Shown: piece by piece, positions 2,097 to 22,226 of the stretch
How positions within the stretch are numbered: position 1 is the stretch's first letter
Layout of the letters: each line of letters begins with the position of its first letter
Virus record (IMG/VR): IMGVR_UViG_3300042337_000081
Span: 1 to 22,245 of that record
Source: a virus
DNA: 22,245 bases
Reading direction: 5' to 3' (one strand)
Translations under genes and position numbers: made by a program
Notes under the pieces: generated by a model
Told to the model about the DNA's origin: nothing
What the model saw: only the letters and a program-made list of their open reading frames with translations
Databases searched by the model: none

Positions 2097-2777
2097 ATGG
2101 CTATTTCTGGCCGATCAGTTCGCATAAGCCGCAACGGCTCCAACATCGTGGGCGCTCGTGCTGACAGCGTGACGATCAATAATGAGCCACTCGACATCAC
2201 GGACAAGGATGATGCTGGTTGGCGCACCATGCTGGGCGATGTCGGCTTGCGCTCCGTCTCTTGCGAGATCGAAGGCGTGCTGAAGGATACCGTCCTCTTG
2301 GCGGATTCCGTAGGCACCGCCACCACGGCGCTTCTCAAGGAGTGCGTGGTCACGATCTCTGGCATCGGCACCTTGACCGGCGACTTCATGCTTCAAGGCC
2401 TTCAGATCGGCGCGGAACAGGCTGATGTCGTGACATTCACCGCCACACTTGAGAGCGGCGAAAACATGACCGCCACCATTGGTCCCTACAATACCGTTCT
2501 CCCGGCGATCACCGGCACGCTTTCCGGAACCAACGTCCAGACCACGACAAACGGCACATGGGCTGGCGATGCCACGATCACATTCGCCCGCCAGTGGCAG
2601 CGCGGCAATGATGCTGATGCCAATGACCCGTCATGGGCCAACATCGCCTCTGCTACCGGAACGACTTACACACTCACAGGCTCCGACACCGGAAAGTATA
2701 TTCGGTGCCGTGTAACCGCCACCAATAGCGTAGGGTCTACGGTGGCCTTCTCTAACATCCGTGGACCCGTGACCTAA
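2097..2777 (+). CDS. Major tail (tube) protein with C-terminal Ig-like domain
   Basis: A 226-residue protein. Residues 1-128 are a tail-tube domain of the TP901-1 major-tail type (GARADSVTINNEP, ITDKDDAGWR, LTGDF motifs). Residues about 135-226 form an Ig-like domain with WQRG, SWANI, TYTLTGSDTGKYIRCRVTAT and a closing strand. Such domains decorate the outside of phage tails and may bind host or environmental glycans weakly. A ribosome site (AAGAAGAGG) lies before the ATG. The next gene encodes a second tube protein, about half identical over the tube domain but with no Ig domain. The pair suggests a mixed tube in which only some subunits carry the decoration, comparable in outcome to SPP1, where a frameshift produces a long and a short form. 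The stoichiometry is inference. Confidence 0.85.
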   Translation: MAISGRSVRISRNGSNIVGARADSVTINNEPLDITDKDDAGWRTMLGDVGLRSVSCEIEGVLKDTVLLADSVGTATTALLKECVVTISGIGTLTGDFMLQGLQIGAEQADVVTFTATLESGENMTATIGPYNTVLPAITGTLSGTNVQTTTNGTWAGDATITFARQWQRGNDADANDPSWANIASATGTTYTLTGSDTGKYIRCRVTATNSVGSTVAFSNIRGPVT

Positions 2778-2792
2778 GAAAGGAACTGAAAC

Positions 2793-3182
2793 ATGCCCGC
2801 AATCGCTGGACGCAAAGTCCGTATCAAGCGCGGTTCGACTGCCGTGGCTGGTGCTCGTGCCGATAGCTTCACCATCAACAACGAGCCGATTGACATCACT
2901 GAAAAGGATGACAACGGTTGGCGCAAGATGCTGGCTGATGTCGGTGTCCGCTCCATCGATGCCGAAGTCGAAGGCATCCTTGAGGACACCACTTTCCTGG
3001 CGCTGGCCGTCGGCACCGCCTCGGCGCTGCTCGAATCCTACACCATCGAACTGCTTGGCCTCGGATCGTTCACCGGCAACTTCTTCCTTGCCAGCTTCGC
3101 TGTGACCGGCGAACAGGCAGACGCCACGACCTTCACGGCCTCGATCCAGTCTTCTGGCACAATTACGTTCACGGCCTCGTAA
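2793..3182 (+). CDS. Second major tail (tube) protein, no Ig-like domain
   Basis: A 129-residue tube protein closely related to the N-terminal half of the preceding gene product. Both share GARADS, TINNEP, KDD-GWR, DVG-RS, FTG/LTG and EQAD-TFTA blocks. A hand alignment gives about 68 identical positions in roughly 127. It stops where the neighbour's Ig-like domain would begin. A ribosome site (AAGAAAGGAA) precedes the ATG at 2793, and only 15 bases separate it from the upstream gene. The shorter form is the more likely main tube subunit, but which one is abundant cannot be read from sequence. It probably arose by tandem duplication followed by gain or loss of the C-terminal domain. Confidence 0.85.
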   Translation: MPAIAGRKVRIKRGSTAVAGARADSFTINNEPIDITEKDDNGWRKMLADVGVRSIDAEVEGILEDTTFLALAVGTASALLESYTIELLGLGSFTGNFFLASFAVTGEQADATTFTASIQSSGTITFTAS

Positions 3183-3184
3183 TC

Positions 3185-3562
3185 ATGGCAATTTTTCGGG
3201 AGCTAACAATCAAGTGGAAGGGTGAAGAATATCGCTTCGTCCCTTCCATGAAGCTAATGCGATCCATCGAGATGGGCGACATATCCTTCACGGACATTGC
3301 CGTTCGCACAAGCCAAGGTCGCCCGCCTGTCAGTCACATCGCTTTCGTTCTTTCCAAGATGTTGCAATCGGCAGGTGCCAAGGTTACGGACGAACAGGTC
3401 TATGAGGAACTTGTCACGGGCGATCAGGAAAGCATCACTTCCTTGATCAGCCTTGTGCTCACATCGTTCTCTCCGACTGAAGACAAGTCAAAAAATCCAG
3501 ACGCCCAGACCGAAAGCCAGTCGAAGGCGAGGGCGAAGATCATGGAGAGTATGGAGAACTAG
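3185..3562 (+). CDS. Tail assembly chaperone, short (frame-0) form
   Basis: A 125-residue protein resembling the GTA-gp10-like tail assembly chaperone family (PF11836). These proteins coat the tape measure protein before the tube polymerises and are absent from finished virions. Seen: FRELTIKWKGEEYRFVPSM at the N-terminus, a helical middle (HIAFVLSKML, VTDEQVYEEL) and a polar, low-complexity C-terminal tail from about residue 97. It lies directly before the tape measure gene, the standard place. There is no clear ribosome site; the start is 3 bases after the previous stop, so translation is probably coupled. The run A_AAA_AAT at codons 103-104 allows a -1 shift into a second frame, giving the long form described separately. 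Confidence 0.8.
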   Translation: MAIFRELTIKWKGEEYRFVPSMKLMRSIEMGDISFTDIAVRTSQGRPPVSHIAFVLSKMLQSAGAKVTDEQVYEELVTGDQESITSLISLVLTSFSPTEDKSKNPDAQTESQSKARAKIMESMEN

Positions 3563-3753
3563 ACTGGAACGGGATGTATCTATGGGCGAGGGAATGGGGA
3601 ATTCAGCCTAGCGATTTCTGGGAGATGACCATTCCCGAGTGGTGGTTGGAATACGAGTTGAAGAAGCCGAAAGAGCCAGGCGAAACATACGCAGGGAAAC
3701 TGACTAGGGCCGATGTAGAGGAACTAAAGGAACTGTTGCATGGCTCAAGTTAG
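3185..3753 (+). CDS. Tail assembly chaperone, long form by -1 frameshift (G-GT type)
   Basis: A -1 shift at 3490-3496 would join residues 1-104 of the short chaperone to 85 codons of a second frame (3496-3750, stop TAG 3751-3753), giving a 189-residue fusion. The second frame is open back to a TGA at 3478-3480. It encodes an acidic linker and then WNGMYLWAREWGIQPSDFW followed by EMTIPEWW, which resembles the GTA-type chaperone family PF09550 (P-x-x-FW-x-MT motif). This is the lambda G/GT arrangement, where the rarer fusion recruits the tape measure protein. The fusion overlaps the tape measure start by 14 bases. The frame also has an ATG at 3574, so separate translation of a 59-residue protein is the alternative. 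Confidence 0.75.
3490..3496 (+). promoter_or_regulatory. Programmed -1 ribosomal frameshift slippery site A_AAA_AAT
   Basis: The heptamer A AAA AAT is phased exactly as X XXY YYZ in the chaperone frame: the codons are TCA-AAA-AAT. Slipping back one base places the ribosome in the frame that stays open to 3753. No strong downstream hairpin was obvious by eye. Confidence 0.72.
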
Positions 3754-5668
3754 CGGAATTGAAGTCAACATCACCGGCAATTCGTCTGGCCTTGATCGAG
3801 CACTAGGCAAGGCAGAAAGTTCATTAAGCAGGTTTGCGAAAGGCGCTGCGGCTGGAATTGCCGGGGCACTTTCCGCTGGTGTGTTTGTCGCGGCTAGTAA
3901 GGCGGCGATCAACTATGCCGACAGCATTGATGAGATGGCCGAGAAAGTCGGAATTGCTGCCGAGGAGCTTTCCGCGCTCACCTATGCCGCAAAAGTAAAT
4001 GGCGTATCGACAGAGCAACTGCAAACTGGGCTGACCATGCTCATCCGCAGCATGGGAGAAGGTGCCGAAAAGTTTGATGCACTAGGCGTCTCGATCTATG
4101 ACAGCAACGGCCAGTTGCGTTCTGCCAATGATGTTCTTGTTGATGTCGCGGACAAGTTTGCATCAATGCCAGAGGGCGTTGGGAAATCCCAATGGGCGCT
4201 TGAGCTTTTCGGACGTTCCGGTCTCAATCTCATTCCGATTTTGAACCTTGGCGCTCAAGGGCTTGCGGATGCTACGGAGCAAGCGCGATTGTTCGGGCTT
4301 GTAGTATCCGGCGAAACAGCAAAAAGCGCCGCAAATTTCAATGACAATCTTGTCAGGCTGCAACAATATGTATTGGGGGCAACAACCAGTTTTGCAACTG
4401 GAATGCTCCCTGCACTAGAAGGCATTACATCCGCTCTCATTAATAGCGCATCGTCAACTGATAGCTTCAAGTCTGCGGGAGAAACGGCTGGGCGCATCCT
4501 TGAAGGTATGGCCCGCGCTGTCATTGTAGTGAAAGATAATCTCGGCCTTCTGAGCGATATGCTCAAAGGCCTTGGGCTTGTTCTATTCACCCGCTACATC
4601 TTTGGCGCTGCATCTGGTTTCGTGGCGTTTGCACAAGCAGTAAAAGCCGCGACCATAACAATGACGGCATTTAACGCCGCCAAGAAGATTGGCCTTGTCG
4701 GGTTCATTACACTAGCGGCTGGCATTGCAATCGCCACCGACAGCGTAGATGAACTCAAGAAGGGTTTAGATTTCGTTTATCAGACTGCTCAAGACATGGT
4801 GCCAGGAATGGCAGAATTCGGAAAGCAGATTTCTGACGCAATTGGAATAGACTTATCAGGTCTTCAAGCCGACCTTTCTGCGGCTCGTGCGATGGTCGAG
4901 AAGTCAAATGCTGGCGCTTTCATTCCGGAAATCCCCGGAAAAGATGGCGAAGCTGGAAAAATGAAAGAGCCTGGTATCTATCGAGAGGAAGACCCGTTCT
5001 TCGTTGATAGACTCCAAACTATTCGTGACCAGTTCGCAACTGAGCGTGAAATTCTTGCGGAAGAATACGCGCTCAACCAAGAAACTCTTGACGGAGCACT
5101 GGCGAACAAGCTGCTTTCCGAGCAAGAATACTATGACCTATCACGCAAGCTGGCCGAAGATCATGCTACATCTCTTGCTGCCATTCAGTCTCAGCGTCTT
5201 GATGGTGATCTGACTGCCGCGTCTTCATTCTTTGGCTCTATGGCGCAAGTCGCACAAGCGGGCGGAAAGCGTCTGCTTAAAGTGGCGAAGGCCGCAGCAG
5301 CCGCACAAGCAATCGTTGACACCATTCGCGCAGCCGTTAGTGCGATGAATGATCCAACGGCCATCACGCCCATTCAGAAGTTCGCCAATTATGCCGCCGT
5401 CTTTGCCAAGGGCATGAGTGCCGTGGCGGCTATCAAGGGCGTCTCCGAAGGCGGTGGCGGCGGTAATGGAGGCGGTGGCGGTGGTGGCCGTCGAGGCGGT
5501 GGCGGTGGTGCATCCGCAGCCCCGGCAGCGGCATCGCCAACGACCACGTTCCAGTTTACAATGATGAATGATCCGATGGGCTTTGGCGAGAAGTTCGCCA
5601 GGCAGTTCATCGACCAGCTTAACAGCACGCAGCGCAACGGCGGCACAATTCGCGGAGTGATAGCCTGA
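3740..5668 (+). CDS. Tail tape measure protein
   Basis: A 642-residue protein that sets tail length and later leaves through the tube during DNA ejection. Seen: an N-terminal segment typical of tape measures (VNITGNSSGLDRALGKAESS, then Ala/Gly-rich helices), long alpha-helical stretches, hydrophobic segments around residues 275-335 that could insert in the host membrane, a charged helical region about 420-495, and a Gly-rich low-complexity hinge near residues 573-592 before a short C-terminal domain. It follows the chaperone and overlaps its long form by 14 bases. At about 0.15 nm per residue the length would predict a tail near 95 nm, a rule-of-thumb estimate only. The end shares one base with the next start (TGATG). 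Confidence 0.92.
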   Translation: MAQVSGIEVNITGNSSGLDRALGKAESSLSRFAKGAAAGIAGALSAGVFVAASKAAINYADSIDEMAEKVGIAAEELSALTYAAKVNGVSTEQLQTGLTMLIRSMGEGAEKFDALGVSIYDSNGQLRSANDVLVDVADKFASMPEGVGKSQWALELFGRSGLNLIPILNLGAQGLADATEQARLFGLVVSGETAKSAANFNDNLVRLQQYVLGATTSFATGMLPALEGITSALINSASSTDSFKSAGETAGRILEGMARAVIVVKDNLGLLSDMLKGLGLVLFTRYIFGAASGFVAFAQAVKAATITMTAFNAAKKIGLVGFITLAAGIAIATDSVDELKKGLDFVYQTAQDMVPGMAEFGKQISDAIGIDLSGLQADLSAARAMVEKSNAGAFIPEIPGKDGEAGKMKEPGIYREEDPFFVDRLQTIRDQFATEREILAEEYALNQETLDGALANKLLSEQEYYDLSRKLAEDHATSLAAIQSQRLDGDLTAASSFFGSMAQVAQAGGKRLLKVAKAAAAAQAIVDTIRAAVSAMNDPTAITPIQKFANYAAVFAKGMSAVAAIKGVSEGGGGGNGGGGGGGRRGGGGGASAAPAAASPTTTFQFTMMNDPMGFGEKFARQFIDQLNSTQRNGGTIRGVIA

Positions 5669-14239: not shown

Positions 14240-15865
14240 TCAGAACAGCGGCTCTTGGAGTTCTGCCAACTCTTCGGCGGTGAGCCGCTTTGGTTGGCTG
14301 TAATCGAGTTGTACAATGTCGTGGAACTTGTCATTCGGCTTCACCTTTATCCTGCGCGGCTTGATCCAATGGTCGCACTCTTGCATGGCGTCTTCGGTGG
14401 TCATGGCAGACGCTCTTAGCGATGGCATCCGCTTCTGGTATCGCTCCGCAGCATAGCCTCCGTGGTCAGGACATAGCCATTCTGAAACTTTGATCAGTCC
14501 ACAATAATAGGTGACGCGAATGCTATCTGGCTTGCCTTCCTTGCGCCAGCGGGAATAGCCCACATCGTTAACGTCAACCCATTCCGCTTCTACCTGTGTG
14601 GAGATCATCGCGCCAGAATATGCCTTCGTTCCGTGATTGAACTGCGGAGGCGGGAATTCATGGCCGCACTCGATGCACACTCTAACGGCGGCATGATTGA
14701 CAGTCAAACATTCCGGGCATTTCTTGACTGGCGCTTCGCCGTCTTCGGTGCGACCTTTGATCTTTGGCTTGATCTTGTCGATGAATCCGTGGCGCATCAC
14801 GTTGTCGCCGTAGTCCAGCACCAGGCAATTCTCTTTCCCCGGCGCAATGCGTGTGCCGCGTCCAACAATCTGGATGTATAGGCCGGTGCTTTCGGTGGCC
14901 CTCACGATTGCCACAAGATCGACATGCGGGACATTGAATCCGGTAGTCAGCACGTTCACATTGATCAGGCATTTGCTGCCGCCACGCCGGAACCGCTCGA
15001 TCTTGTCGGCGCGTTCGCTCATGCCATCGGCCCCTGTCACGACATCCGCCTCGATGCCGTGCGCCTTGAACTCGGCACGCAGCAACTCGGCGTGATTGAC
15101 ACCGCAAGCAAAGACCAGCCACGCCTTGCGCTCCGCACCATAGCGCACAATTTCTGCAACTGTTTCTGTTACCAATTCCGGATCGGATGCAGCCTTGGCT
15201 AGTTCGCTTTCGATATACTCCCCGCCGCGTTTGCCGACGTTCGAGAGGTCGATGGTCTTGACGCCGCTCTTGCTAATCACTGGGGCTAGGAAGCCCTGCT
15301 CCATGAGATCGGCAACCGGGATGTCGTATGCAATGCCGTCAAAGATCGCGTTGTCGCCTTCGTGCAGCCAGCCACTATCGAGCCGGTAGGGCGTGGCCGT
15401 AAGACCGACCACCTTCACACCGCGATTGCATATGCGAAGGTCCGAGAGAAACTTGTTGTAGCGTGTGCCGTAGTTCTTCGGAATCAGGTGCGCCTCGTCT
15501 ACGATCACCAGATCGGGCGCTGGCACCATCTGATAAGCCTTCTTGTGGATCGACTGGATGCCCGCAAACGTGATCGGCTTCCGCAGCACCTTCTTCTTGA
15601 GGCTGGCGCTGTAGAAGCCGACATCTGCCTCGGGATAAAGCGCCACCAATTCACTGGCGTTCTGCTCCAGCAACTCCTTGACATGCGTCAAGATCAGAAC
15701 GCGCGTGCCGGGATAACTCATCGCATCCTTGATCAGGTGCGCGATGATCAGGCTCTTGCCAGAGCCAGTCGGAGCAACGATGATGGGGTTGTCGCCCTTC
15801 TTGTCGGACCAATAATTGTATAGCCCATCAATGGCGGCGCGTTGATAGGGGCGGAGTTCTAGCAC
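14240..15865 (-). CDS. SF2 DEAD/DEAH-box helicase with zinc-finger-like C-terminus
   Basis: A 541-residue SF2 helicase of the type common in phages. Seen: RPYQRAA (residues 5-11, Q motif-like), Walker A APTGSGKS (31-38), DEAH (123-126), TAT (156-158), TTGFNVP (307-313) and QIVGRGTR (332-339, motif VI). After the helicase core, Cys383, Cys386, Cys397 and Cys400 form a CxxC-x10-CxxC zinc-ribbon-like cluster, followed by about 130 residues of unknown fold. Starts with GTG at 15865, overlapping the nuclease stop by 7 bases (GTGCTAG), so the helicase and the Cas4-like nuclease are co-translated and likely work together in recombination or origin opening. Confidence 0.9.
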   Translation of the reverse strand: MLELRPYQRAAIDGLYNYWSDKKGDNPIIVAPTGSGKSLIIAHLIKDAMSYPGTRVLILTHVKELLEQNASELVALYPEADVGFYSASLKKKVLRKPITFAGIQSIHKKAYQMVPAPDLVIVDEAHLIPKNYGTRYNKFLSDLRICNRGVKVVGLTATPYRLDSGWLHEGDNAIFDGIAYDIPVADLMEQGFLAPVISKSGVKTIDLSNVGKRGGEYIESELAKAASDPELVTETVAEIVRYGAERKAWLVFACGVNHAELLRAEFKAHGIEADVVTGADGMSERADKIERFRRGGSKCLINVNVLTTGFNVPHVDLVAIVRATESTGLYIQIVGRGTRIAPGKENCLVLDYGDNVMRHGFIDKIKPKIKGRTEDGEAPVKKCPECLTVNHAAVRVCIECGHEFPPPQFNHGTKAYSGAMISTQVEAEWVDVNDVGYSRWRKEGKPDSIRVTYYCGLIKVSEWLCPDHGGYAAERYQKRMPSLRASAMTTEDAMQECDHWIKPRRIKVKPNDKFHDIVQLDYSQPKRLTAEELAELQEPLF

Positions 15866-16788
15866 TTGCTGAACTCCCTGCCCTTGTTCCGCACGATCTC
15901 GCCGTCTTCGTTGATGTAGTCGATCCAGTCTTCTCCGGTGTCGTGCACCGGCAGCTTCACCAGAGCCGGATTGTATATGTGATCACCGCAGCCGCTACGC
16001 TGGTCGATCTCATCGAGTGCCTTCTTGTGCCTGGCGCAGGACCAGCCTTGAGTCTCTGCCGTCGAGAAGGCGCATGTGCGGCAGTTCAGTTCCGCAGCGC
16101 CATCTCCGTGGCATATCGAATGATACGGACAGAACTTGCACTCGAACCACGCCGGATCGTTGCTGATTCCAAGCGGTGGCCGTTCGGTCGATATGATCTT
16201 TCTTGCCTTCTCGATAAGCGACTCTGCAAAGGCATGATCGACCTTTAGCCGCTCTGCGTAAATCTCATCGGTGTTCTTGTTGATTGAAATGAACAGGCAC
16301 CGATCCAGTCCACTCAAGTGCATTCCGATCTGGCACTGTGCGTAGTAGACCGGCTTCGCCTTCTCGACGCCGAGGTTGCACAACACCTTGAAATACTTCT
16401 CGCTCATGGTTTTCACTTCGAGCGTGTGCGGCTGCGTGCTATCCGGCAAGCCTTCGACAACTCCGTCCAGGCTCAAGGCAAAATGCCCGCCAACCGCCGT
16501 ATATCGGAACTGCTGGCCTGTTGCCGGATCGCGATCCCAGACCGTGCAACCGGCAGCGCGCAGGTTCTGGATCACCCGCAGTTCCTCGCGTTCGCCAGTC
16601 TCAAAGAGGCGCAAGATGCGGCCTTCGTGCTTCTCGGTATATGTCCACCGGAATTGATACCAAAGCGCACGAGAGCAGATGTTCCCGATTTGCGACCCGC
16701 CAAGATGCGGCCTGTGTGCGTTGCGGCGGTTCTCTTCGTATCGCTGGTATATCGCCCTTACGATTGTCGATGTCATGTCTAGTTTCAT
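15859..16788 (-). CDS. PD-(D/E)XK nuclease, Cas4/RecB-like with Fe-S cysteines
   Basis: A 309-residue nuclease. Seen: Cys38 in a GNICSRALWYQF motif, Asp108 (SLDGVVEG), Glu124-Val-Lys126 (LEVKT) and a Tyr-x-Gln-x-Gln helix at 149-153, the RecB-type catalytic set. Cys217, Cys220 and Cys226 (CKFCPYHSIC) would join Cys38 in a [4Fe-4S] cluster, as in Cas4 and AddB. A second cluster follows: Cys236, Cys239, Cys251 and Cys267, probably zinc. No CRISPR genes or repeats are near, so this is a phage recombination nuclease rather than a CRISPR adaptation protein. ATG 16788 has GAGGGAA just upstream. It is co-translated with the helicase by a 7-base overlap. Confidence 0.85.
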   Translation of the reverse strand: MKLDMTSTIVRAIYQRYEENRRNAHRPHLGGSQIGNICSRALWYQFRWTYTEKHEGRILRLFETGEREELRVIQNLRAAGCTVWDRDPATGQQFRYTAVGGHFALSLDGVVEGLPDSTQPHTLEVKTMSEKYFKVLCNLGVEKAKPVYYAQCQIGMHLSGLDRCLFISINKNTDEIYAERLKVDHAFAESLIEKARKIISTERPPLGISNDPAWFECKFCPYHSICHGDGAAELNCRTCAFSTAETQGWSCARHKKALDEIDQRSGCGDHIYNPALVKLPVHDTGEDWIDYINEDGEIVRNKGREFSKC

Positions 16789-16790
16789 TC

Positions 16791-17255
16791 TTATTCCCTC
16801 CCTGTCACGCTCTCAACCAACCTCCGCTCGTAGCCCATCAACAGGCAAATGGTTTTAACTGGTGTGGCTTGATCATGCAGCCACTTGATGATCTTCATCC
16901 GCCTGATTGTGACTTCCTTGGTCATGTTTGCATCTTGCTGGGCAATTATGCGCTTGTAGTAATCGCTTGTGGCCGTGTCGCTTGCTCCGAAGTTCCTGGC
17001 AATGTCCTTCCATGATCTGCCCTTGATCCGCAGCTTCTCCATCCGCTGAAAATCCTCCATCGACCAATCGCGGCGAACGATTTGCGCCTTGGGCCGATCT
17101 TCCTCGCCGTCAGTCCATGTGTAGCGTTTGAACTGCGGGATGAAGTCAACCGCCACATCATTCCAGACGATCCGGCCTTCGACATCGAAGCTCCAGAAGT
17201 TGCCGTCCAGCTGTTGCTTCATAAGGCGTTCGATTGCGTAGGTGTCGGTGGTCAT
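16791..17255 (-). CDS. HTH-containing DNA-binding protein, unknown
   Basis: A 154-residue protein. Residues 64-90 (DWSMEDFQRMEKLRIKGRSW then KDIARNFG) resemble a Myb/GcrA-like helix-turn-helix ('W-x-x-x-x...G-x-S-x-x-x-I-A-x-x-F-G'). The last part, MKIIKWLHDQATPVKTICLL followed by GYERRLVES, looks like a second HTH-like segment. The N-terminal 60 residues are of mixed strand type. There is no enzymatic motif. The ATG at 17255 has an AGGGAGG ribosome site and is preceded by a possible pseudoknot at 17275-17304. It lies between the recombination genes and the nuclease, so it could regulate the block or direct the nuclease to DNA. Confidence 0.68.
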   Translation of the reverse strand: MTTDTYAIERLMKQQLDGNFWSFDVEGRIVWNDVAVDFIPQFKRYTWTDGEEDRPKAQIVRRDWSMEDFQRMEKLRIKGRSWKDIARNFGASDTATSDYYKRIIAQQDANMTKEVTIRRMKIIKWLHDQATPVKTICLLMGYERRLVESVTGRE

Positions 17256-17274
17256 GTGATCCTCCCTTGTAATT

Positions 17275-17304
17275 GGGGCGACCCGTAAGAGCCGCCCCGC
17301 TCTT
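17275..17304 (-). promoter_or_regulatory. Nested complementary segments, possible RNA pseudoknot
   Basis: In the minus-strand transcript AAGAGC, GGGGCG, GCTCTT, a 6-base gap and CGCCCC follow in order. AAGAGC pairs with GCTCTT, leaving GGGGCG as the loop; GGGGCG pairs exactly with CGCCCC. This is an H-type pseudoknot arrangement, or two exclusive hairpins, ending 20 bases before the start codon of the HTH gene at 17255. No T-run follows. Confidence 0.4.
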
Positions 17305-17316
17305 TAATATGCTGCG

Positions 17317-17769
17317 CTACTTCTTCTTCCAGGGTGGCGTTGCAGCAGCCGCAGGTGCAGCCGCCGGTGATCCACCTTCGCACGGCTCGTATCCGGCAAT
17401 CTCATTCGATGCCTGATAGTTGCCCTCTGCTGGCTTGACCTTGACCGTAATCATCATCGGCTTGTCGTGAAGGTCAGAACTTTCGTTCGGCATCATCACA
17501 CCAACCGAGCGGCAGATGGCCGAGAGCGTCCGCTGGGCGATCTCCTCGGCAGTCTTGTTCGGGTTGTTGAGGTTGAGCCGGTCCATCAAACTAACGCCCT
17601 GGTGAGGCCCCTCGATGATCTGGCAGGTGAGCACCAGCATCGAGCCGGTCTGTGCCTTGGTGGGGCGCTCCTCGCTCTTCGTGATCACGGCCTTGTACTT
17701 GCCAGCCGGGATGACTTCGCGTGGCGCACTTGGCTCCACGACATTCGCATCGAATCCATTCAGTCTCAT
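17317..17769 (-). CDS. DUF669-like protein, putative single-strand DNA binding
   Basis: A 150-residue protein of the DUF669 type (PF05037). Seen: an IPAGKYKAVITKSEERPTK strand-turn region, MLVLTCQIIEGPHQG, LMDRLNLNNPNKTAEEIAQR and a closing helix-strand (ICRSVGV), the core of the family, which looks like an OB-type fold. The C-terminal 25 residues are an Ala/Pro-rich linker ending PPWKKK. Proteins of this type usually accompany phage annealing or recombination proteins and may serve as an SSB analogue. The gene begins 9 bases after the Sak4-like gene, so the two are probably partners. Binding to single-strand DNA is inference. Confidence 0.78.
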   Translation of the reverse strand: MRLNGFDANVVEPSAPREVIPAGKYKAVITKSEERPTKAQTGSMLVLTCQIIEGPHQGVSLMDRLNLNNPNKTAEEIAQRTLSAICRSVGVMMPNESSDLHDKPMMITVKVKPAEGNYQASNEIAGYEPCEGGSPAAAPAAAATPPWKKK

Positions 17770-17778
17770 TCTCTTCTC

Positions 17779-18534
17779 CTACTTTGCTACAAAGGCTTCG
17801 AAAGGGTTGCCGCTCTCAAATGTGAACGGCAATGGCTGCGTGATATTGAAACGGTTCTTCGTCACGCTCGACGCTTGCGGGAAGCAGATGATTTCCCGGT
17901 CGCCTGTGCTGATCGCCCGTTTCTTGTCGCCATCACCTCGGACGTAGGTCTTGAGACGGATCAGGCCCACGAGGTCCACGTTGTCAGTGTAATGCGGCAG
18001 TGACTTCTTGTGCATGCGCACGGTGTATCTGGCAAACGGGTCGAAGTCTGGCAGATCAAGCGTCTCAGTGTCAGCGTGGCCGATAAAGACCACGTTCATG
18101 CCGCGTTCGTATGCCAGTGCGCCAGCCCACTCCCGCACCTGCCGGTGCTTCTCGGCGGCGGTGTTATAGCCCGCTCCGTAACCGCCACCGGCTTGGTTGA
18201 TGCTCTTCGCCTTGGGATCAGCGGCAACAATCTCATGCTCGATCATGGTGGCAAGCTGCGTGATGCTATCCAGCACGACCGTCTTGAAGTCATGATCCTG
18301 AGTTGCCAGTGCTTCGATCTGATCGAGCACTTCCTGGCTCGATGAGACCAACGGGAAAAGCATCACTTCATCGTTGCCAGCCAAGCTGGCGGTGCCGTCT
18401 TCGGTGCGAATGAACACCGGCCTCGGGAACATCGCAGCCAGCGTGCTCTTGCCCATACCTCCCTCACCGAATACCGTTGCGATGATGGGCCGTTGCCCTT
18501 TCGGGCGCTCTAGTTTCTTCAGATCAATTGCCAT
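17779..18534 (-). CDS. AAA_24 ATPase, Sak4-like recombination protein
   Basis: A 251-residue P-loop ATPase of the AAA_24 type (PF13479), the family that includes phage Sak4 single-strand annealing proteins related to the RecA core. Seen: Walker A GEGGMGKST at residues 23-31, Walker B VVLDS at 86-90, a following Thr/Gln region (ITQLATM), a Gly-rich loop with QAGGGYGAGYN near 113-123, and a VVFIGHADTE strand at about 148-157. The ATG at 18534 overlaps the previous gene by 11 bases. Sak4 proteins usually work with an SSB; the DUF669-like gene directly downstream fits that role. The phage probably uses it for replication-linked recombination. Confidence 0.85.
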   Translation of the reverse strand: MAIDLKKLERPKGQRPIIATVFGEGGMGKSTLAAMFPRPVFIRTEDGTASLAGNDEVMLFPLVSSSQEVLDQIEALATQDHDFKTVVLDSITQLATMIEHEIVAADPKAKSINQAGGGYGAGYNTAAEKHRQVREWAGALAYERGMNVVFIGHADTETLDLPDFDPFARYTVRMHKKSLPHYTDNVDLVGLIRLKTYVRGDGDKKRAISTGDREIICFPQASSVTKNRFNITQPLPFTFESGNPFEAFVAK

Positions 18535-18697
18535 CGTTCTCGGCCTCCTTAACTCCGAGTATCCTCATAGCCTCGCGCAGGTTTTCAACAGCGCACCGCA
18601 CATGATGGTCGCGATTCACCTTGTCAGTCTTTGCAATGACCAAGTGGTCACGGGCATACTGCAAAGCGTCTGCTGCTCCGTAGATGTCCTTACTCAT
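18524..18697 (-). CDS. Small helical protein, unknown function
   Basis: A 57-residue protein starting MSKDIYGAADALQYARDHLV and continuing as a charged helix ending in EAENDGN. It starts with ATG at 18697 overlapping the previous stop by 8 bases (ATGAGTAA type), and ends inside the Sak4-like start with an 11-base overlap. This length falls below usual ORF limits. Coupling on both sides and the frame's good fit support a real gene in the recombination operon. No family recognised. Confidence 0.7.
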   Translation of the reverse strand: MSKDIYGAADALQYARDHLVIAKTDKVNRDHHVRCAVENLREAMRILGVKEAENDGN

Positions 18698-19073
18698 CCG
18701 CCACCACCTTCACGCCGATCTTCCCCGGCGTGGCCGTGATTGCCTTGGCAGCGATAGACCAGAGATCGGGCCGCTCCTTGATGAGCCACTTGCATCCGGC
18801 ATCGTCTACCTCGATCTTGACCTTGATCGGCCAAGCCTCGGCGGGCATGTCGTGCTTGACGGTCTCCCAGATGCCCAAATCGATCTTGCGATAGATCGGC
18901 TGGGTGAGCGTCACCCGATACGGCTCGACCTTGTGCGTGATTGCGCCTTCGGTCTTGGCGTCCAGTGCTTCGGTGATGTCTTGCTCGATCTTTCGACGCG
19001 CCTCGATGGCTTCGTCTTCGCGGCGTTTGGCTTCAAGCCAGGCCCCGCATAGCCCTGTTACGTTGCTGCTCAT
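18690..19073 (-). CDS. DUF7173-like phage protein
   Basis: A 127-residue protein. Seen: an N-terminal helix with a W-L-x-A-K-R-x-E-x-x-A pattern and RRKIEQDI (residues about 12-33), then EGAITHKVEPYRVTLTQP, YRKIDLG, a strand with PIKVKIEVDDAGCKWL, and ITATPGKIGVKVV at the end. This matches a family I associate with DUF7173, often found beside Sak4-type genes. Function unknown to me. It is the first gene of the minus-strand operon, with AAGGAGG before the ATG at 19073, and faces the divergent control region. Confidence 0.68.
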   Translation of the reverse strand: MSSNVTGLCGAWLEAKRREDEAIEARRKIEQDITEALDAKTEGAITHKVEPYRVTLTQPIYRKIDLGIWETVKHDMPAEAWPIKVKIEVDDAGCKWLIKERPDLWSIAAKAITATPGKIGVKVVADE

Positions 19074-19169
19074 TGTCAGCCTCCTTTTCTCTCAACGGAA
19101 TGGCTTATTGCATATTTCTGAAATGCGTGCAATAGAAAAAATTGCAATCACCAAACAGGAGACTGACCA
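19074..19169. promoter_or_regulatory. Divergent control region with ATTGCA operator-like sites
   Basis: This 96-base gap separates the minus-strand recombination operon from the plus-strand regulator. It holds ATTGCA at 19107-19112, its inverse TGCAAT at 19128-19133 (centres 21 bases apart, two helical turns) and the palindrome ATTGCAAT at 19141-19148. On both strands a TTGCA(T/C) box stands 17 bases before an AATA box, weak promoter-like pairs overlapping the sites. Ribosome sites lie at both edges. Confidence 0.5.
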
Positions 19170-19343
19170 ATGCTATCCATCGAAGACATCCGCGCCCGCC
19201 TTGCCGGGGCTGATATTCCCGAAATCGTCAAGGCCACTGGCCTTTCCTACAACACGATCAAAGCCATTCGGGATGGCGCTCCCGGCGCTCGATACGAGAC
19301 GATCAAGCTGCTCACGGAGTTTTTTGAAGGGAAGCAGCAGTGA
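19170..19343 (+). CDS. Small HTH (Cro-like) regulator
   Basis: A 57-residue protein, shorter than usual ORF limits, with a complete HTH: IEDIRARLAGADIPEIVKAT then GLSYNTIKAIRDG (recognition helix about residues 25-36), followed by RYETIKLLTEFF, a layout of short phage repressors or Cro-type proteins. The ATG has AGGAG ten bases before it. It sits directly at the divergent control region with ATTGCA repeats, so it probably binds there and controls one or both directions. The start of the methyltransferase-like gene overlaps its stop as GTGA. Confidence 0.78.
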   Translation: MLSIEDIRARLAGADIPEIVKATGLSYNTIKAIRDGAPGARYETIKLLTEFFEGKQQ

Positions 19344-19894
19344 GGGTATTGGTCGCTTGTGAATACTCTGGCACGGTGCGGGATGCCTTCGCTGCCAGAG
19401 GCCACGATGCTTGGTCTTGTGATCTGCTGCCGACCGAACGCATTGGTAATCATATCCACGGAGATGTGCTTCAGCATTTGCACCGCAACTGGGACTTGAT
19501 GATCGCTCACCCGCCTTGCACTCATCTCGCCGTTTCCGGCGCTCGATGGTTCAAGGATAAGCAAATCGAACAGATCGAGGCGCTCGACTTTGTTAGACGC
19601 TTGTTAGACGCTCCCATACCACGCATTGCATTGGAGAACCCGATCAGCATCATATCGAGCCGCATCCGCAAGCCAGACCAGATCATCCAGCCGTGGCAAT
19701 TCGGTCATGGAGAAACAAAGGCAACTTGCCTTTGGCTCAAGAACCTGCCGAAGCTGCTGCCGACGAACATCATGGAAGGCCGAGAGGCGCGCATTCACAA
19801 GATGCCGCCGGGGCCAAATCGCTGGAAAGAACGCAGCAGGACGTTTGAAGGCATCGCACAAGCGATGGCTGAACAATGGGAAGGCCGTCCTTAA
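19340..19894 (+). CDS. Compact DNA cytosine-C5 methyltransferase-like protein
   Basis: A 184-residue protein. Seen: MRVLVACEYSGTVRDAFAAR and GHDAWSCDLLP (SAM-binding motif I and II region), PPC at residues 58-60 (C5-type motif IV, Cys60 as the candidate nucleophile), ENP at 99-101 (motif VI), and a C-terminal segment with IQPWQFGHGETKATCLWL. Full C5 methyltransferases are commonly over 300 residues, so this compact phage type lacks a clear target-recognition domain. Whether it methylates DNA, for instance to avoid host restriction, is inference. GTG 19340 overlaps the regulator's stop (GTGA). A tandem 11-base repeat lies at 19590-19611. Confidence 0.78.
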   Translation: MRVLVACEYSGTVRDAFAARGHDAWSCDLLPTERIGNHIHGDVLQHLHRNWDLMIAHPPCTHLAVSGARWFKDKQIEQIEALDFVRRLLDAPIPRIALENPISIISSRIRKPDQIIQPWQFGHGETKATCLWLKNLPKLLPTNIMEGREARIHKMPPGPNRWKERSRTFEGIAQAMAEQWEGRP

Positions 19895-19895
19895 C

Positions 19896-22226
19896 ATGAC
19901 CATCATAGCGAGCATCAAATCCTACACCGAACTCGGCTGGTATCTTGTCCCGATCCCGGCAGGGCAGAAGGGGCCGACATCATACGGCTGGAATCAGAAG
20001 GATAAGGCACTTACCGGCCAGGGTGCCATCGACTTCTATTCCAAGAATCCGACTTGGAACGTCGGCCTCATTCATCAATGGACAGGCACCTGCGCGATCG
20101 ACATCGATCACATGGAATGGACCCGGATCATCTTTGAGGGGCTGGGGCTTGATCTGGATGCCTTGATGGCATCAACCGCCAGAATTCGTGGGCGGGAGGG
20201 CCGTGGCAAACTCATCTTCCGCGCTCATCGGGATGACCTATCTCGCCATTCCATTGCGTGGCCGAACAAGGATGGCAGGGGCAACACGACCGTCTTTGAG
20301 TTGCGCGGTGGGCCGGTGCAAGATGTCCTGCCGCCGTCGATCCATCCCGACACGATGCAGCCATATGTGTGGGAAGGGTTGCCCTTCGATCAGATTCCGA
20401 TCCTGCCGAAGCAGTTGCAGGTCATGTGGGACGAATGGGACAAGTTCCGTCCGCAAATGATGGACTTGTGCCCGTGGAAGGTTCGGCCCGAGTATCAGGC
20501 CCCGGTTCGGGTTCGCGCGCCTAATCCCGGCACATCAGTGATCGATGCCTATAATGCGGCGCACAATATCGGTGAGTTGCTGGTCAAGTATGGCTACAAG
20601 CGCACCGCACCGAATCGGTATCTAAGCCCCAACAGCGGCACCAAGCTAGCCGGTTGCAATGTGTTCGATAACAACACGGCATTCAGCCACCACGGCTCCG
20701 ATCCGTTTGGCAATGAACACGCATTCGACTGCTTCGAACTTTACCTCCAGTTCGAGCACGCCGGGAACATGAGTGCGGCGATCAAGAACGCAGCCGCCTT
20801 CCTCAACATCACGACCGATCCGAGCCATGAGTGGACGCCCGAGGCAAAGGTTCAGATTGATCACGGCAAAGCGGCAACTCCCGGTGTGCTGCCTTCCAAA
20901 CGCACCACCAGTGCCGCGCCAGACAATCCGCTGGCATCTATCCCGGCGCATCTGCTCTCGATCCCTGGCGTGCTTCAAGACGTTGTGCGGTACTACGAGA
21001 CGACCGCCATCAAGACGCAGCCGCAGTTTGCCGTGCAAGCCGCCATTGCCCTTGGTGCCGTTGCAATGGGGCGGCGATGGACAACGAGCCAGCGCAACTT
21101 CAGCAACCTGTACCTGCTCAATATTGGCGAGACTGGTTGCGGCAAGGAACACGCCAAGACGGTCATCGAGGCCATGCTTGATGCAGCCCAGCTAGGGCAT
21201 CTGCTAGGGCCAGCCGGTTACACTAGCGCCAGCGGCGTCTTCTCGGCGCTCATCTCCCGGCCTATTCACGTTTCCGTGATCGATGAACTAGGCCGAACCC
21301 TCAAGTCTGCCGCGAATCGCTCGATGCAGCACAAGGCTGATAGTCTCACGGCCATCATGGAATGCTTCGGGCGGCAGGATGGCGTCTTGCGGCCACAAGG
21401 ATACGCCACCATCGGCCTTACGAAGGAACAGGCAGAGGCATTTGAGAAGGTCATCAGAAGGCCGTCCTTGACGCTCCTAGGCATGTCTACGCCATCGGAG
21501 TTCTACGGGGCCATCTCGGGCGGTGACATCGCATCTGGCCTTCTCAACCGGTTCTTGATCGTCAAGTCGGAGATCGGCGTTCAGATGAGCCAGGAGCGGC
21601 GGATCGTGCCGATTGGCGACCGCATCATCGGATGGCTTCAAGAACAGGCACAGGCGCACTCTGGGGCTGGAAACCTCACCGGCACCAATACCTATGACAT
21701 GCCGCCCGATCCCGTCGAGGTGTCCTTTACAAGGCCAGCTATGGACATCCTGCGGGACTATGAGGCCGAACTGGTCGCGGCGATCAAAGCTGAGAACGAA
21801 ACCGGCCTCGAAGCGATGTACAACCGCAGCCGCGAGATCGCCATGCGGATCAGCCTGATTGTCGCTAGGTCATTGGGCGAGACCGAGATCGGACCTGAGC
21901 CTATGCAGTGGGCGATTGATTATGTCAGGTTCTACAACCGGCGCGCCATCGCCATGTTTAGGGACAACATGGCCGAGAGCAGCCATCAGGCGATCTGCAA
22001 GGCAGTCATTGCCAAGCTGAAGACATCCGGTCTCAAAGGGCTGACAGAGGCAGAGCTGGGCAACCGCATCTCGGCGTTCGATGCCTTGACGCTCCGAGAC
22101 CGGGGCCAGGTGATGGACAAGTTGGTTGCCGACTACGGCATCCAATGCCGCCACACGAACAAGGGCCAGCGGGGAAGGCCTCGCATGGCGTGGTTCATCC
22201 CGGCACCGGAGACCACTGAAGATTGA
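19896..22226 (+). CDS. Primase-polymerase / helicase fusion (replication protein)
   Basis: A 776-residue protein. Residues 1-170 form a prim-pol type primase (PF09250-like): AIDIDH with Asp69 and Asp71 as metal ligands, an R-x-G-R-G-K-L-I-F strand (about 100-108), and ELRGGPVQDVLPPSIHPDT with His150. Residues about 350-640 carry a P-loop helicase-type domain: Walker A GETGCGKEH (411-419) and Walker B VSVIDE with Asp463-Glu464. A winged-helix-like tail follows (about 700-776). The frame is open to 19626, but that stretch overlaps the methyltransferase; ATG 19896, two bases after that gene's stop, gives a full primase domain. It likely starts and unwinds phage DNA in replication. Confidence 0.88.
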   Translation: MTIIASIKSYTELGWYLVPIPAGQKGPTSYGWNQKDKALTGQGAIDFYSKNPTWNVGLIHQWTGTCAIDIDHMEWTRIIFEGLGLDLDALMASTARIRGREGRGKLIFRAHRDDLSRHSIAWPNKDGRGNTTVFELRGGPVQDVLPPSIHPDTMQPYVWEGLPFDQIPILPKQLQVMWDEWDKFRPQMMDLCPWKVRPEYQAPVRVRAPNPGTSVIDAYNAAHNIGELLVKYGYKRTAPNRYLSPNSGTKLAGCNVFDNNTAFSHHGSDPFGNEHAFDCFELYLQFEHAGNMSAAIKNAAAFLNITTDPSHEWTPEAKVQIDHGKAATPGVLPSKRTTSAAPDNPLASIPAHLLSIPGVLQDVVRYYETTAIKTQPQFAVQAAIALGAVAMGRRWTTSQRNFSNLYLLNIGETGCGKEHAKTVIEAMLDAAQLGHLLGPAGYTSASGVFSALISRPIHVSVIDELGRTLKSAANRSMQHKADSLTAIMECFGRQDGVLRPQGYATIGLTKEQAEAFEKVIRRPSLTLLGMSTPSEFYGAISGGDIASGLLNRFLIVKSEIGVQMSQERRIVPIGDRIIGWLQEQAQAHSGAGNLTGTNTYDMPPDPVEVSFTRPAMDILRDYEAELVAAIKAENETGLEAMYNRSREIAMRISLIVARSLGETEIGPEPMQWAIDYVRFYNRRAIAMFRDNMAESSHQAICKAVIAKLKTSGLKGLTEAELGNRISAFDALTLRDRGQVMDKLVADYGIQCRHTNKGQRGRPRMAWFIPAPETTED

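Follow-up and report, generated by a model that had tools for sequence, protein, structure and literature searches.

A −1 ribosomal frameshift, apparently dispensed with in related gene transfer agents, probably yields two forms of a tail assembly chaperone in an uncultured tailed phage

The DNA analysed here, a window of 22,245 nucleotides, belongs to an uncultured tailed phage in which a single gene probably gives rise to two forms of a protein that assists tail building. We consider it very likely that a programmed −1 ribosomal frameshift at the heptamer A_AAA_AAT produces a minor fusion protein, GT (189 residues), beside a major short form, G (125 residues), and, from a comparison of their loci, the related gene transfer agents (GTAs) seem to do without this frameshift. 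In the proposed mechanism some ribosomes would slip back one base at A_AAA_AAT, both the slippage and its rate being predicted, and the slip rate would set the ratio of G to GT. By analogy with phage lambda, G would coat the tape measure protein; tail tube subunits would be recruited by the T part of GT, present in few copies, both binding partners being assigned through the same analogy.

The features of the window are collected in Table 1. Read in codons from the ATG at 3185, the heptamer AAAAAAT falls on TCA (3488–3490), AAA and AAT, in exact X_XXY_YYZ phase, as the earlier note had claimed. The −1 frame has a TGA just ahead of 3481, is open over 3481–3750 and closes with TAG at 3751–3753, the 0-frame stop of G being TAG at 3560–3562. 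Translation of a tandem −1 slip joins 104 + 85 = 189 residues, which reproduces the hidden frame and the fusion that had been predicted; the motif P-x-x-F-W-x-M-T, attributed to the extension on the same occasion, was found there within QPSDFWEMT. In-phase X_XXY_YYZ heptamers occupy 2 of 2880 codon positions in the 11 structural ORFs of the window, and the long open frames of the loci retrieved gave 280 in 176,104 (0.16%); given this background and its conservation among relatives (below), the heptamer in phase is more than chance.

Table 1. Features of the window, by position
Feature	Position	Strand	Basis
Tail tube protein A with C-terminal extra domain	2097–2777	+	PF06199, E 2.9e-13
Tail tube protein B	2793–3182	+	PF06199, E 1.3e-15
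Upstream ORF, G-like tail assembly chaperone, 125 aa, Phage_TAC_11 / GTA gp10 related	3185–3562	+	ORF list and PF11836 match
Slippery heptamer A_AAA_AAT, in phase	3490–3496	+	sequence read in frame from ATG 3185
Predicted T-like extension after −1 slip, 85 aa and stop	3496–3753	+	frame open since 3481; PF09550 match
Dual-frame overlap, heptamer to 0-frame stop	3497–3562	+	substitution pattern leaning to the −1 frame
Internal ATG of the −1 frame, unsupported as start	3574–3576	+	Shine-Dalgarno-like match absent in 20/20 representatives
Tape measure protein	3740–5668	+	PF10145, E 3.5e-11; PHROG tape measure families
Helicase	14240–15865	minus	
YqaJ-like protein, just under Pfam cut-off	15859–16788	minus	
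AAA protein	17779–18534	minus	
Prim-Pol protein	19626–22226		

The genes follow the order tube, tube, G, T and tape measure, with the start of the tape measure gene (3740) overlapping the end of the T frame. The chaperone pair thus lies between the tube and tape measure genes, which is the usual place of tail assembly chaperones in long-tailed phages. The G of the window matched PF11836 (Phage_TAC_11, GTA gp10) at E 1e-4 and 22.7 bits, below the 27.8-bit curated cut-off, and its T part matched PF09550 (Phage_TAC_6) at E 0.0045–0.018 and 15.9–17.8 bits, below the cut-off of 23.4 bits, which is exceeded by the frameshift-type relatives PB15 (29.9 bits) and L282 (27.4 bits). At E ≤ 0.1, PF11836 was matched by 15 of 16 aligned G sequences, and PF09550 was the only Pfam family among the aligned T sequences, in all 16. 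The proposal that two families are joined here fits the matches of the aligned members, while the scores of the window itself stay under the Pfam cut-offs; as regards TIGR02216, which the earlier note had named for a check, NCBIfam (release 20.0) showed no family at E ≤ 1 for G or the T part. Taken together, the gene order and the weak PF11836 and PF09550 matches fit a tail assembly chaperone of the lambda-like G/GT type.

The predicted structure of G (mean pLDDT 79) matched nine viral predicted structures at E ≤ 0.001, eight of them unnamed and one uncharacterized; weaker matches, above that E-value, carried both names, tail tube protein (best E 0.0096) and tail assembly chaperone (best 0.012). 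Foldseek comparison of the G model with the PDB returned no match at E ≤ 0.001 and a second look with VIA-align reached a best Z of 3.4, neither of which shows that the fold differs from solved chaperones. Searching solved structures with the A2 profile returned two matches, at chance level. The T model was of low confidence (mean pLDDT 60.8); the T alignment contains a D-W motif in which W is invariant and D is present in 90% or more of the sequences.

Elsewhere in the window, the tandem tube genes (2097–3182) encode products 54% identical over 126 residues, the first having about 96 extra C-terminal residues, and they may possibly supply decorated and plain tube subunits from two genes. Of 66 loci tried (L002–L067, not all distinct phages), 64 gave matches, and 60 of these showed a pair of tube genes; at least one of the four others (L010) begins inside the region. 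The stretch 14240–22226 carries replication and recombination genes.

To collect relatives, viral contigs were scanned with each half of the fusion and then with alignments of each, one alignment-based scan contributing the best 80 of its 260 matches. Many fetched loci were overlapping cuts of the same contigs and were hence reduced to distinct sequences. In a first set, 121 loci (L059 was left out, its gene running off the contig) gave 59 distinct sequences, all 59 with an in-phase X_XXY_YYZ. In a larger set of 284 sequences (the window and 283 loci), profiles of both halves built from 16 of these sequences, which can miss very divergent relatives, found both halves in 273. These reduce to 71 distinct sequences, which fall into 30 clusters when grouped by G frame at 90% identity. 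G only was found in three sequences, namely L059, L267 (contig end) and L283, which is phage GJ44 (T missed by the profile), and T only in eight, namely L101, L113, L114, L164, L176 and L177 (cut at the start), L282 and L281.

Conservation of the heptamer among relatives, a check that the earlier note had proposed, extended to every case: in all 71 distinct sequences T is read in −1 relative to G, and the G/T overlap contains a heptamer in phase. The letters vary, as AAAAAAT (46), AAAAAAC (13), CCCAAAA (4), AAAAAAA (4), GGGAAAT (3), GGGAAAA (3), AAAAAAG (3) and CCCAAAG (1), some sequences carrying two; the GGGAAAT, GGGAAAA and CCCAAAG versions indicate that the X_XXY_YYZ pattern is kept, and not the A-run as such. 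GJ44 and L282, which lie outside the 71, also carry an in-phase heptamer, placed at the end of the G gene and immediately followed by the stop, which in L067 comes one codon on. The pattern that had been set against a frameshift, namely loss of the heptamer with a ribosome site kept before the ATG, was found in 0 of the 71. One exception stands apart: L281 (4597–5177), a second locus of the Rhodovulum kholense genome, has a G-like gene and a separate T-like gene that overlap in GTGA, with a tape-measure-like ORF after the pair, and the heptamer is absent.

The extension could instead be made as a separate short T gene, by a start or reinitiation at ATG 3574 after the stop at 3560–3562, giving a 59-residue protein. 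An ATG is present at this place in 18 of 20 representatives, 11 nt past the G stop in the window, GenBank gives T a gene of its own in GJ44 and in PB15, and separate G and T genes do occur in GTA-type loci and in L281. Yet by our own pattern a Shine-Dalgarno-like match precedes this codon in 0 of 20 representatives, L064 has CTG and L065 TTG at this place, and L067 has no start codon there. Moreover, a start at 3574 would remove the conserved D-W of T, which in the listed GTA-type loci, too, comes after the start of T, and a separate T gene leaves the heptamer unexplained. The overlap bears on this point as well, since it sits upstream of ATG 3574 and a start there cannot account for a −1 pattern within it. 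Over 179 pairs from 20 representatives, which share sequences and are not independent, differences per site at −1-frame positions 1, 2 and 3 of the overlap were 0.31, 0.29 and 0.41; the wobble position of the −1 frame, equivalent to position 2 of frame 0, thus changes most, and that of frame 0 less (0.31). As controls, the same pairs gave 0.28, 0.20 and 0.57 for G-only sequence and 0.22, 0.15 and 0.48 for T-only sequence, each in its own frame. Among the 79 overlap changes counted in 14 non-overlapping pairs, 32 were silent in the −1 frame and 14 in frame 0, while the position test on the same pairs (37 vs 24 changes) was not significant (p = 0.12). Amino acid identity in overlaps of equal length was 60% in the −1 frame vs 48% in frame 0. 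The substitution pattern upstream of ATG 3574 thus leans to the −1 frame, and we regard a separate T gene as very improbable.

Even less probable, in our judgement, is transcriptional slippage on the A-run, with the altered mRNA translated normally: runs of 6 to 9 A are found in most members, but that of the window counts just 6, and the relatives with GGGAAAT, GGGAAAA or CCCAAAG hold the phase with 3 or 4 A. A G/GT-type −1 ribosomal frameshift, as first suggested for this locus, is instead favoured by the conserved heptamer with varying letters, the −1 substitution pattern, the gene order and the family matches.

As for the RNA around the heptamer, RNAalifold and single-strand folds revealed no conserved downstream stimulator, with no covariation, compensatory change in 0 of 14 consensus pairs and inconsistent stability (z −0.51 in the window; z < −2.5 in 3 of 10 sequences). 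A GGAG-like stretch lies 5' of the heptamer in some relatives and is weak in the window. Directly past the heptamer, positions 3500–3511 (GACGCCC, then CC) are invariant or nearly so in 14 aligned sequences including the window, a constancy that may reflect constraint on the proteins of both frames or else an element of the mRNA.

The comparison with GTAs was made in the family of Rhodovulum kholense, which we take to be Rhodobacteraceae. A PF09550 search of 61 genomes of this family gave matches in 44 genomes at 47 places, and 48 loci were examined, these 47 and one further place. By their two proteins, a label that does not extend to whole head-tail clusters, 45 were GTA-type and one prophage-like (L316), and two (L315 and L317) were without an adjacent upstream ORF. 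The upstream ORFs fit a gp10-like pattern in 43 of the 45, although this pattern was devised after viewing part of the loci and is not independent there. Relative to G, T lay in the −1 frame in 30 GTA-type loci, in +1 in 14 and in frame 0 in one (32, 12 and 1, respectively, if the upstream ORF, chosen automatically in both counts, is taken by another rule). In 45 of 45, a codon that could start T lies no more than 30 nt from the G stop; since such codons are common by chance, the better figure is that of the stop-start overlaps, found in 28 of the 30 −1-frame loci (ATGA 23, GTGA 4, TTGA 1). The statement that the two families are separate genes in GTAs accordingly holds for these 45 loci. A productive heptamer, that is, in phase within the last 90 nt of G and with T in −1, occurred in 1 of 45 (L292, GGGGGGC); this count leaves aside heptamers farther than 90 nt ahead of the stop of G (L286, L292, L313, L323 and L329) and that of L321, a +1-frame locus.

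The high GC of GTA loci also makes A-rich heptamers rarer, and the better control is given by genomes that hold both designs, of which there are two. G014 has a split pair (L304) and a frameshift-type locus with AAAAAAG (L316), and G002, a metagenome-assembled genome whose two loci may belong to different organisms, has a split pair (L332) and a frameshift-type locus with AAAAAAA (L278). We give an even chance to the reading in which phages and most prophage-like loci keep a −1 frameshift that yields the GT fusion at a fixed ratio and alphaproteobacterial GTAs dropped the fusion, making two separate, translationally coupled proteins. We go no higher because of L281, a split locus without the heptamer that is not GTA-type and speaks against a simple phage/GTA rule, and because the same-genome controls are just two.

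The window is a well-supported addition, from a new phage group, to the known G/GT kind of frameshift, with slippage as the predicted step; the difference from GTAs is the more surprising result. The result corrects gene calls in this uncultured phage group and in GJ44 and PB15, whose T is listed as a hypothetical gene of its own. It also suggests that the chaperone pair of GTAs corresponds, in split form, to the G/GT pair joined by frameshift, and comparing the two would be a natural way to ask why a fusion at a set ratio is needed by most tailed phages. If the GTAs did lose the frameshift, this loss would be a mark of domestication, and the covalent link between G and T would be dispensable in a tail of the same type.

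In the GTA of Rhodobacter capsulatus (RcGTA), as given in the available parts of the sources, g10 and g10.5 are tail chaperones 1 and 2, with a pfam11836 domain in g10 (PMC11409702), and a short gene at that place is named g10.1 (PMC9765227); we infer that the second gene belongs to PF09550 and that g10.5 and g10.1 are two names for the same gene. The GTA-type loci resemble this pair, since in all 45 the PF09550 match adjoins a gp10-like ORF, and they differ from the window in having two genes whose stop and start overlap or adjoin, with no productive heptamer in 44 of 45. In a limited literature search, in which absence is weakly tested, no statement of a phage-versus-GTA contrast in frameshifting was found: within the accessible text, the word frameshift is absent from the main text of PMC11409702, the words looked for have 0 occurrences in PMC7296036 and PMC9662315, and no link of a frameshift to the pair appears in PMC10783043, PMC9765227, PMC3711429, PMC10885494 or PMC4276943. 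In both GJ44 (Oceanospirillum phage) and PB15 (Alteromonas phage), G is followed by T in the −1 frame as in the window, with in-phase AAAAAAG and CCCAAAG, respectively, at a distance of 37.7% identity over part of G for GJ44 and 35.6% over part of T for PB15. GenBank gives G and T as two genes in L283 2501–3027 (GJ44) and L284 2109–2716 (PB15), despite the joining heptamer.

A conserved frameshift in tail assembly chaperone genes was reportedly described by Xu, Hendrix and Duda in 2004, and the slippery heptamer of lambda is GGGAAAG. The lambda mechanism, its 30:1 molar ratio, the gene order around the chaperone and the wide conservation of the frameshift are set out in the portions available of PMC5009743. 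As far as the accessible text of the following sources goes, a frameshift is usual in tail chaperone genes and present in most R. capsulatus phages studied, RcZahn excepted (PMC8601537), 6 and 7% frameshifting was measured for two HK97-like tail chaperone genes (PMC3711429), and 39 heptamers (61%) are slip-prone in E. coli without a stimulator (PMC4066793). In gp12/gp13 of Acinetobacter phage Loki, a slip is predicted on AAAAAAC directly beside the stop of the upstream chaperone (PMC5313236, available in part), a likeness in arrangement to L282 and GJ44. The window, known here from sequence alone, differs from lambda G/GT in its PF11836- and PF09550-like proteins and in its heptamer A_AAA_AAT, and it is like lambda in the place between tube and tape measure genes, in the X_XXY_YYZ −1 slip site near the end of the upstream ORF and in the predicted pairing of a long fusion with a short form.
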